NCBI RefSeq assembly: GCF_019355935.1
Contig: NZ_CP079925.1
Span: 3,410,001 to 3,474,000 of the forward strand
Reading direction: 5' to 3'
DNA: 64,000 nt
Source of the DNA: Comamonas sp. Y33R10-2
GTDB lineage: Bacteria > Pseudomonadota > Gammaproteobacteria > Burkholderiales > Burkholderiaceae_C
Below, piece by piece: positions 21,912 to 23,636 of this stretch; position 1 is the first letter of the stretch, and the number at the start of each line of letters is the position of its first letter. The translations under genes and the position numbers were made by a program. The notes under the pieces were generated by a model that did no database searches, had not been told where the DNA came from, and worked only from the letters and a program-made list of their open reading frames with translations.

Positions 21912-21954
21912 ACAAACCCCGCGCTGCATAGCAGCCCGGGGTTTTGTTATTTTT
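21912..21954 (+). terminator. Terminator after tldD
   Basis: AAACCCCG and CGGGGTTT arms enclose an inner GCTGC/GCAGC stem and are followed by TTGTTATTTTT. It lies about 35 nt after the tldD stop. Confidence 0.85.
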
Positions 21955-22232
21955 AGCCCTTTAAAAGGGTTAGAAGTTGTGGCTGAGACGAATTTTTAAC
22001 GCATTCATTGGCGAATAGATAAAAATTGCGGATGCGCTGAAAAATTGCATTGATTGTTTTTCAGATCATTTTTTAGTCAATAAAATTCTAAAAAAATATT
22101 AAAAACGCAAAAAAATTGCATATCAAATGCATTAAAAAATTCCCCTGTTCAGAGGAGAAGAGCTTTTCTGACAGCACTTTTGCATTGATGCCTGATGCTG
22201 CATTGCAAAAGAGCTGTGCTACATTGAAAGAC
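21955..22232 (+). promoter_or_regulatory. AT-rich upstream region of the aroG leader
   Basis: About 280 nt without a gene. 21990-22145 is strikingly AT-rich with A and T tracts, unlike the rest of the window, and includes TTGCATATCAAATGCATT. Further down, CTTTTGCA (22177-22184) and TGCAAAAG (22204-22211) form an 8-bp inverted repeat just before the leader peptide. It probably holds the aroG promoter and perhaps an operator; I cannot assign -35/-10 boxes with confidence. Confidence 0.5.
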
Positions 22233-22295
22233 ATGCAAACGCAACGCGCTTATTTCTTTTACTTTTGGTTCTCACCCCCGGCGGCTGAGAGGTAA
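22233..22295 (+). CDS. aroG leader peptide, rich in Tyr, Phe and Trp
   Basis: A 20-codon frame encoding MQTQRAYFFYFWFSPPAAER, followed by TAA. Codons 7-13 read Tyr-Phe-Phe-Tyr-Phe-Trp-Phe, seven aromatic residues in a row, which is very unlikely by chance. GAAAG lies just upstream as a weak ribosome site. The frame is followed by mutually exclusive stem-loops and a terminator before aroG, as in classical leader-peptide attenuators (trpL, pheL). The function, sensing charged aromatic tRNAs, is inferred from this arrangement. Confidence 0.88.
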   Translation: MQTQRAYFFYFWFSPPAAER

Positions 22296-22359
22296 TTGAG
22301 CGCACCCTGCACACACCTCCCTAAGAACCGCCGAAGCTGACAAGCCCGGCGGTTTTTTT
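22279..22359 (+). promoter_or_regulatory. Attenuator: antiterminator and terminator before aroG
   Basis: Two exclusive folds can be read. Terminator: AACCGCCG (22326-22333) pairs with CGGCGGTT (22347-22354), followed by a T-run to 22359. Antiterminator: CGGCGG (22279-22284) pairs with CCGCCG (22328-22333), enclosing a second stem GAGGT (22289-22293) with ACCTC (22315-22319). The 5' antiterminator arm overlaps the last codons of the leader peptide. A ribosome reaching the stop would therefore mask it and allow termination. A ribosome stalled at the aromatic codons (22251-22271) would leave it free. Confidence 0.85.
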
Positions 22360-22417
22360 ATGCCCACGTTCCAGCTCCCCCGGTTTTCCAAAATCAAAGA
22401 CTTCACGAAAGATCGCC

Positions 22418-23578
22418 ATGACTGCTCTGAACACTTCAACCACTGATTCCTGGTATCGCTCTGCCTCCCCCAAGACAGGACAGACAGACGACGCACGTAT
22501 CAAGGACATCACAGTGTTACCACCTCCAGAGCACCTCATTCGCTTCTTCCCAATCTGCGGCACGCCCGTGGAGACACTGATCAGCGACACCCGCCGCAGC
22601 ATTCACAACATCATGCGTGCGCAGGATGACCGCTTGCTGGTGATCGTCGGCCCTTGCTCCATTCACGACCCTGCCGCCGCTTTGGAATATGCCCGCCGTC
22701 TGGCCGTAGTGCGTGAGCAGTACAAAGACACACTAGAAGTGGTGATGCGCGTGTACTTTGAGAAGCCTCGCACCACAGTGGGCTGGAAGGGGCTGATCAA
22801 CGACCCCTACTTGGATCAAAGCTACCGCATCGACGAAGGCCTGCGCATTGCACGCCAGTTGCTGATCGACATTAACCGTTTGGGCGTGCCAGCGGCCAGC
22901 GAATTCTTGGATGTGATCTCTCCCCAGTACATTGGCGACTTGATCAGCTGGGGAGCCATTGGTGCTCGTACCACGGAAAGCCAAGTACACCGCGAGTTGG
23001 CTTCGGGTATCTCGGCGCCTATCGGCTTCAAGAATGGCACCGACGGCAATATTCGTATTGCAACGGATGCGATTCAGTCCGCCAGCCGCGGTCACCACTT
23101 TTTGTCGGTACACAAGAATGGCCAAGTCGCTATCGTGCACACCGGCGGCAACCAAGACTGCCATGTGATTTTGCGCGGCGGTAAGACGCCTAACTACGAG
23201 GCAGAGCATGTCGCTGCCGCCTGTAGGGATTTGGAAGCTGCTGGCCTGACGCCTACTTTGATGGTGGATTGCAGCCATGCCAACAGCAGCAAGCAGCATG
23301 AGCGTCAAATTGACGTTGCCCGTGACATCGGCGCTCAAATCGCTGGCGGTTCCAACAGCGTGTTTGGCGTAATGATTGAAGGCCACCTGGTCGGCGGTGC
23401 CCAGAAGTTCACACCCGGCAAAGATGAAGTCAGCAAGCTGACTTATGGCCAGAGCATTACCGATGCTTGCTTGAACTGGGATGACTCCGTCGCCACCATG
23501 CAAGAGCTGTCACAAGCGGTGCTCAAGCGCCGCCAAGCTGCTGCTGTTGGTAATAAAGAAGCGGCAGTTGCTGCCTGA
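22418..23578 (+). CDS. aroG: 3-deoxy-7-phosphoheptulonate (DAHP) synthase, AroG type
   Basis: First enzyme of the shikimate pathway, condensing PEP and erythrose 4-phosphate. Class I (AroAI-alpha) motifs are clear. GPCSIHDPAAALEYARRL has the metal-binding Cys. GARTTESQVHRELASG, VDCSHANSSKQHERQ and the C-terminal GGSNSVFGVMIEGHLVGG are also present. 386 residues, slightly longer than E. coli AroG because of tails at both ends. It is controlled by the attenuator directly upstream. Which amino acid inhibits the enzyme itself cannot be read from the sequence. Confidence 0.96.
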   Translation: MTALNTSTTDSWYRSASPKTGQTDDARIKDITVLPPPEHLIRFFPICGTPVETLISDTRRSIHNIMRAQDDRLLVIVGPCSIHDPAAALEYARRLAVVREQYKDTLEVVMRVYFEKPRTTVGWKGLINDPYLDQSYRIDEGLRIARQLLIDINRLGVPAASEFLDVISPQYIGDLISWGAIGARTTESQVHRELASGISAPIGFKNGTDGNIRIATDAIQSASRGHHFLSVHKNGQVAIVHTGGNQDCHVILRGGKTPNYEAEHVAAACRDLEAAGLTPTLMVDCSHANSSKQHERQIDVARDIGAQIAGGSNSVFGVMIEGHLVGGAQKFTPGKDEVSKLTYGQSITDACLNWDDSVATMQELSQAVLKRRQAAAVGNKEAAVAA

Positions 23579-23598: not shown

Positions 23599-23636
23599 AA
23601 ACAGGCCACAAGGCGATTGCCCTGTGGCCTGTTTGC
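23599..23636 (+). terminator. Terminator after aroG
   Basis: AAACAGGCCACA (23599-23610) pairs perfectly with TGTGGCCTGTTT (23623-23634), with A-rich and T-rich flanks. It can serve both aroG and the convergent yqcC-like gene. Confidence 0.88.

Follow-up and report, generated by a model that had tools for sequence, protein, structure and literature searches.

How is the entry into aromatic amino acid synthesis controlled in a bacterium in which the regulators of Escherichia coli are not detected? In E. coli aroH is under the control of TrpR and aroF-tyrA under that of TyrR, according to the cited passage (PMC5343134); in the genome of Comamonas sp. Y33R10-2, by contrast, neither regulator was found by models, those for TrpR (PF01371) and for the TyrR-type HTH (TIGR04381) having no match there while they do match in E. 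coli. The locus that raises the question lies in a stretch of 64,000 nucleotides of that genome, here called the window. Its aroG product scores 528.2 bits against the DAHP synthase model TIGR00034 (cut-off 173.2; 6.6e-159) and 551.5 bits against NF006723, just below the cut-off of 568. A second DAHP synthase of the same genome (L002, G000:C1:3075908-3076948) is 56% identical and has no aromatic leader by our scan.

Upstream of aroG stands a short frame in which codons 7-13 are all aromatic (Table 1); the 20-codon leader with YFFYFWF at these positions, as originally proposed, is exact to the base on direct reading. Its run is the only one of at least seven aromatic codons in all six frames of the window. 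When the 539-nt intergenic region was shuffled with its dinucleotides kept, a plus-strand, start-to-stop frame of 8-60 codons with such a run arose once in 3000 shuffles, which rules out a chance ORF as the source of the leader.

Table 1. Features of the aroG locus in positions of the window
Feature	Position	Strand	Basis and remarks
Extended -10 element TGC-TACATT	22217..22225	+	Letters and family conservation; 7 nt before the leader ATG
Leader ORF MQTQRAYFFYFWFSPPAAER, 20 codons, stop TAA 22293-22295	22233..22295	+	Letters and relatives; predicted leaderless, without Shine-Dalgarno
Control codons 7-13, Tyr Phe Phe Tyr Phe Trp Phe	22251..22271	+	Letters; seven consecutive aromatics
Strand A (region 2) CGGCGG, antiterminator 5' half	22279..22284	+	GGCGG:CCGCC pairs in diverse rows
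GAGGT, helix 2 5' half, inside conserved GAGAGG	22289..22293	+	Folding; matched versus mismatched partner test
ACCTC, helix 2 3' half	22315..22319	+	Folding; matched versus mismatched partner test
Strand B (region 3) CCGCCG, common to antiterminator and terminator	22328..22333	+	Covariation alignments
Strand C (region 4) CGGCGG, terminator 3' half	22347..22352	+	Terminator covariation alignment
Intrinsic terminator, stem 22323-22333 with 22347-22357, U7 22353-22359	22323..22359	+	Fold, covariation
aroG, DAHP synthase, regulated gene	22418..23578	+	TIGR00034
Inverted repeat after aroG, possibly its terminator	23599..23634	.	Letters; scored as a minus-strand terminator

The same arrangement recurs in the window's family. 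When relatives were searched, as first suggested, an aromatic leader was seen before aroG in 109 of 111 loci. The loci had been selected through the similarity of their AroG proteins (80 named, and 31 from the window's genome and family), and at least five are second copies of one record: L083, L084, L088 and L089 repeat L004, L010, L020 and L023, and L091 apparently repeats L027. The two loci without a leader are the paralogue L002 (L001 and L002 being the two aroG copies of the window's genome) and L040, where the sequence starts only 31 nt before aroG; L068 carries a leader and is counted in the 109 but left out of the 108 used below. The records include Comamonas, Delftia, Acidovorax, Diaphorobacter, Simplicispira, Giesbergeria, Limnohabitans, Rhodoferax and Ramlibacter. 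Two titles are at odds with their contents: L069 (CALQKH020000003.1), titled Akkermansia muciniphila MAG, has aroG with a Limnohabitans-like leader (MTSRFAFYFFYFWFSVPGGREASA) on a contig that looks mis-binned, and L017 (NZ_CACSJA010000009.1), titled Pantoea sp. 18069, has the same leader peptide (MNAARAYFAYFWFSVPGG) as Acidovorax sp. CCYZU-2555 (L016), which makes its name doubtful.

Beyond the family the element was traced with covariance models. The first, R1, was built from family sequences only and yet finds the element in other families, with matches at E 0.01 in 124 of the 399 genomes searched from the order, in part short terminator-only ones; in the window's genome it has one strong site (2.7e-26), and no second copy was found there, no other R1 match being better than E 0.07. 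We checked 89 loci, comprising 60 sites fetched from other families and 29 search-returned loci, 11 of them of the window's family. AroG lies downstream of the element in 87 (there is none at L202 and L203) and the scan reports a leader in 85, that of L183 being in a spurious frame, while L201 and L205 have AroG and no leader by scan; the model used to find the far loci contains aromatic codons and so favours aromatic leaders. The far set consists of those of L130-L208 with a leader, minus L183 and L131 (the latter of the window's family), which makes 73 loci; counts given on 74 (chance and peptide, spacing, -10 shuffles) still include L131. Among 193 leaders, 4 lack an exact CCGCC...GGCGG and 11 an exact leader GGCGG, and these were excluded from the tables of strands A, B and C. 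A diverse set of 62 leaders was obtained by removing near-duplicates at 80% and excluding L068, L183, L088 and L091; L178 is among the 62 but was omitted from alignment A2, leaving 61 rows.

The second model, R2, built from the 61 diverse leaders, matches 126 of the 399 genomes at E 0.001. At 1e-6 or better it has full-length matches in 103 genomes, many of which had supplied sequences for it; these belong to 14 of the 51 families sampled in the order. It has one further weak partial match in the window's genome (E 0.006). Of 369 genomes sampled across the class, four from outside the order match below 1e-12, three of them in one family and all before aroG. As a negative control we took 40 aroG upstream regions from 40 genomes, drawn from families, genera or gene copies that had given no strong match. 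A single frame exceeded the threshold (L237, spurious) and none was credible, so the element is clade-bound rather than universal. One of these control loci, L274 (G425:C31:41685-42265), has a CCGCCA/TGGCGG terminator and a TGATAGCAT element before aroG with no recognisable leader ORF, and is possibly a decayed or altered attenuator.

What is conserved in the leader is informative about the level at which selection acts. Past the aromatic run the peptide varies (PPAAER, VPGG, VPGGREASA) while GGCGG is kept, and the reading frame of GGCGG varies as well, being frame 0 in 79 and frame 2 in 28 loci of the window's family, and frame 0 in 6, frame 1 in 6 and frame 2 in 49 of the other families; GGCGG is thus kept as RNA and not as peptide, with selection at the peptide level up to the end of the run and at the RNA level past it. 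The run itself is T-rich, with 77% T at codon position 1, so that one might regard the aromatic frame as a by-product of a U-rich RNA element, a protein or sRNA site, followed by a terminator. We judge this very improbable. In the 62 diverse leaders C (0.42) and T (0.45) are nearly equally frequent at the third codon positions of the run, and the other frames are not aromatic: the densest 9-codon window holds 6.6 aromatic codons in frame against 2.2 and 1.7 in the other two, a comparison in which the windows were picked as densest in frame and the choice favours the reading frame. The start ATG, moreover, lies at a fixed distance from the -10 element, and in 104 of 107 family loci, as in 52 of 61 others, the distance from the start of the last aromatic codon to GGCGG is 11-15 nt. 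An untranslated U-rich element is accordingly rejected on the evidence of codon positions and frames.

The leader frame seems to begin where the transcript begins. In the window's family TGnTAnnnT stands 6-8 nt 5' of an in-frame leader ATG in 108 of 108 loci, against 0.35 expected from shuffles; for the ATG picked first by the scan the count is 101 of 108, and the remaining seven, in which that ATG lies 12-14 nt after the -10, have a second in-frame ATG at 6-8 nt, which was used instead. In L011, L020 and L088 the ATG at gap 8 was used instead of that at gap 2. No Shine-Dalgarno sequence is seen before the leader ORF: in the 60 loci with ATG as the aligned first residue the energies average -0.02 for leader starts, none at or below -5, and -4.3 for the aroG starts, 39 of 60 at or below -5, while the 62 diverse leaders average -0.9 against -1.6 in shuffled sequence. 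From the -10 spacing and the absent Shine-Dalgarno the sensor frame is predicted to be leaderless in the window's family, with a predicted transcription start at 22233 or about 1 nt before it.

A conventional 5' UTR, with a start site further upstream and a leader frame that is not leaderless, has some points to recommend it, namely a sigma-70-like pair at 22058-22086 on the plus strand (9 of 12 in a pattern scan), from which a 5' UTR some 140 nt long would result, and the 44 of 73 other-family leaders that have no TAnnnT 6-8 nt before the ATG. Set against the invariant -10 spacing of the family and the weak Shine-Dalgarno energies of its leader starts, however, we think it improbable. In other families TAnnnT is found at that distance in 29 of 73 leaders, with about 3.7 expected for 74, and the other 44 may start otherwise than leaderless. 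A Burkholderia cenocepacia transcriptome paper reports 82 short 5' UTRs in its Table S3 (PMC5688073); a term search of its main text does not find aroG.

Downstream of the leader frame, the positions proposed for CCGCCG and for its two possible CGGCGG partners, one of them in a U-tailed terminator, are confirmed, and by folding strand B pairs with A or with C exclusively. The fold energy of the terminator is -19.8 kcal/mol (z -5.4, equalled by 0 of 200 shuffles), and its end lies 58 nt before aroG; a simple pattern scan of the window did not list it. It lies between tldD (end 21878) and aroG and might therefore be taken for the ordinary terminator of tldD. This is hardly credible, given the conserved promoter and ORF that intervene and the presence of the element with aroG in 87 of 89 loci. 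The tldD terminator reading was rejected, since tldD is followed by a hairpin of its own, read by eye near 21917-21946.

The five GGCGG:CCGCC pairs of the antiterminator form in 58-61 of the 61 diverse rows. A second antiterminator helix, GAGGT/ACCTC, was also part of the original prediction; its positions are right, but it is not confined to the antiterminator, for the minimum-energy fold and several full-length folds contain it alongside the terminator. Across leaders its energy is -7.5 kcal/mol with true partners and -6.3 with mismatched ones, a difference reached in 0 of 5000 permutations (n = 55), although kinship inflates the contrast. The pyrimidine-rich aromatic codons (22250-22268) can in turn pair with GAGAGGTAA and part of strand A (22278-22295) in a duplex of -9.4 kcal/mol, possibly a weak region-1 helix that in the folding does not prevent A:B.

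Ribosome positions were modelled by masked folding. The distance from the ribosomal A-site to the leading edge is conventionally about 13 nt, and this mask size was assumed; the spacing from the last aromatic codon to GGCGG is close to it. With a stall at codons 7-12 the probability of A:B is at least 0.99 before C is made, whereas a stall at codon 13 (Phe) gives 0.01 and is predicted to be ineffective, and with the ribosome at the stop codon the terminator alone forms. Computed with this mask, then, a stall frees the antiterminator strand and a ribosome at the stop codon covers it, codon 13 excepted. Of the 62 diverse leaders 55 were entered in this test and in that of helix 2: stalled in mid-run, A:B exceeded 0.5 in 54 (the exception being L169), and with the ribosome at the stop codon B:C exceeded 0.5 in all 55. 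At full-length equilibrium the terminator always wins, and antitermination must therefore be kinetic. Without a ribosome the probability of A:B before C appears is 0.98. A protective region 1:2 hairpin is usual in trp-type leaders but not universal, so we do not take it as defining; no effective one emerged in the folding of this leader, and since A:B forms without a ribosome, readthrough is predicted when the leader is untranslated.

Covariation of both helices had been named as a check; for the terminator the result was positive, for the antiterminator weak. The terminator has 31 cells changed on both sides, a number reached by 0 of 500 shuffles, chiefly at pair 154:170, which is GC in 29, AU in 27 and otherwise in 5 of the 61 diverse rows across families; its covariation score too was reached by 0 of 500 shuffles, and its count of further pair types was not above shuffles. 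The antiterminator has 18 such cells, matched by 1 of 500 shuffles, but a slide of two columns gives 19. Its covariation score was matched by 35 of 500 shuffles, its percentage paired by 28 and its both-side pair changes by 423, and position 68:154 is CG in 21, UA in 17, UG in 1 and unpaired in 22 of 61 rows. The A:B covariation is weak because the core pairs hardly vary; inside the window's family, where the core is invariant, it is uninformative. The letter B+1 changed at least 4 times on the AroG tree, and of 4 independent changes 3 are followed at C-1 and on average 1.6 at A-1, never in the reverse direction, numbers too few for significance.

Which amino acids does the leader sense? The element was said to read all three aromatic tRNAs at once. 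In the window's family its anatomy agrees with this, Phe, Tyr and Trp all being present in 67 of 70 distinct leader peptides, but elsewhere Trp is present in 29 of 71 distinct leaders and missing in 42. The general sensor is thus a Phe/Tyr sensor, and three-aromatic reading, Trp being regular only in the window's family, a feature of that clade. It is possible, if less than likely, that the attenuator responds to Phe and Tyr together (or to Phe only) and that the single Trp codon is incidental, a reading to which the 42 leaders without Trp and at least 10 changes of Trp presence on an AroG tree of 54 rows lend weight. The aroR leader of Corynebacterium glutamicum (Phe-Tyr-Phe) is likewise reported as Phe-responsive and not Tyr-responsive (PMC11802643), a 2025 review stating in the cited part that this aroF leader responds to limitation of Phe and not of Tyr; the presence of codons does not, therefore, prove a response. 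Against an incidental Trp stand its retention in the window's family and the position of the family's Trp codons, at least 14 nt before GGCGG in all 110 counted, from which a Trp stall leaves strand A free in the mask model.

The locus thus has clustered codons for products of the pathway, an intrinsic terminator before aroG and an antiterminator that shares a strand with it. Leader-peptide attenuation of aroG, the core of the original prediction, is strongly supported by conservation, geometry and pairings that exclude one another in folding, and on this basis we are confident that the element is a ribosome-mediated transcription attenuator of aroG. The start site, the stalling, the kinetics and the response to each amino acid are what we infer, as follows. 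Transcription would start at the leader AUG or 1-2 bases from it, and ribosomes would enter directly at the 5' end of the RNA, no Shine-Dalgarno sequence being involved. With all aromatic tRNAs charged the ribosome would reach the stop codon and cover strand A, whereupon B would pair with C, the terminator would form and aroG would be off. With uncharged Phe, Tyr or Trp tRNA it would stall within codons 7-12 shortly before its leading edge reaches A; this strand would then pair with B, extended by helix 2, before C is transcribed, and the polymerase would enter aroG. A lack of any one of the three amino acids would suffice, so that the first reaction common to their synthesis would be under an OR gate. 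Termination would yield a leaderless RNA about 127 nt long (22233-22359) that encodes a 20-aa peptide, comparable to rnTrpL/peTrpL.

Our broadest reading, which in our estimate is evenly poised between right and wrong, is that of an undescribed RNA family, with members in 14 or more families of one order and in a few relatives outside, that has a leaderless sensor ORF and ribosome loading on the first base of the transcript. In the window's family it would combine the tRNAs of Phe, Tyr and Trp in an OR gate, which would replace TyrR/TrpR at the entry into the shikimate pathway; it would have no region-1 hairpin, and its control codons would end 11-15 nt before the antiterminator strand, a distance set by the leading edge of the ribosome. 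A known Rfam element was considered and rejected, with no matches in the window and two far below the gathering threshold in 22150-22450. If correct, our account offers a testable view of how aromatic synthesis may be controlled at its entry in these bacteria, at least one of them without detectable TrpR or TyrR. It also provides a natural sensor of three amino acids in one ORF and, as a prediction, a widespread instance of leaderless translation inside a regulatory switch. The covariance models are supplied and detect the element in other genomes.

We looked for precedents in the open full-text literature, outside which subscription papers mostly lie and in which older work may be missing: among the matches listed there is neither this leader nor any DAHP synthase leader with all three aromatics. 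The enterobacterial trp and phe leaders have exclusive hairpins and a U-tailed terminator, as in the Comamonas element, but unlike it they serve one amino acid each, are led by a Shine-Dalgarno sequence and have a region 1:2 hairpin. A Vibrio gene that enters the comparison, aroAIalpha_Y, we take to be a DAHP synthase gene. Cognate codons and regulation by charged tRNA are likewise common to the enterobacterial leaders and ours, on the cited description (PMC11802643). RNA-level control has been predicted upstream of DAHP synthase genes, as here, in Shewanella aroF/aroH and in a Vibrio DAHP synthase-tyrA unit: Shewanella aroF is tabled as 'Attenuator sensing tyr-tRNA' (PMC2659441), and among attenuators predicted for tyrA operons Vibrio aroAIalpha_Y > tyrA is tabled as putative (PMC1173090). 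These differ in being predictions in other orders with one or no amino acid named in the tables, and are likened by description only. The predicted uORFC-13-1 of Acholeplasma aroF, known from 24 representatives in Acholeplasma and environmental DNA, also combines an upstream ORF containing Phe with a terminator before a DAHP synthase gene; as described, it differs in an RBS in its consensus, at least one Phe codon and another structure (PMC8632094).

For the leaderless frame the reported precedent is Sinorhizobium meliloti trpL (rnTrpL), an attenuator whose transcript begins with the leader ATG and whose peptide and RNA act in trans; the cited text describes Trp codons before trpE(G) in an alphaproteobacterium, unlike the present case (PMC7298713). 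For the regulated gene it is aroR of C. glutamicum, a leader peptide that precedes the DAHP synthase gene aroF and acts by attenuation (PMC11802643, PMC4046766), as proposed for Comamonas; it differs in its Phe-Tyr-Phe codons and its response to Phe, with no Trp mentioned in the passages cited, belongs to Actinobacteria and is likened by description and not by sequence. Set beside these systems the mechanism is a classical one; what looks new is this member of the kind, together with its triple sensing and its distribution.
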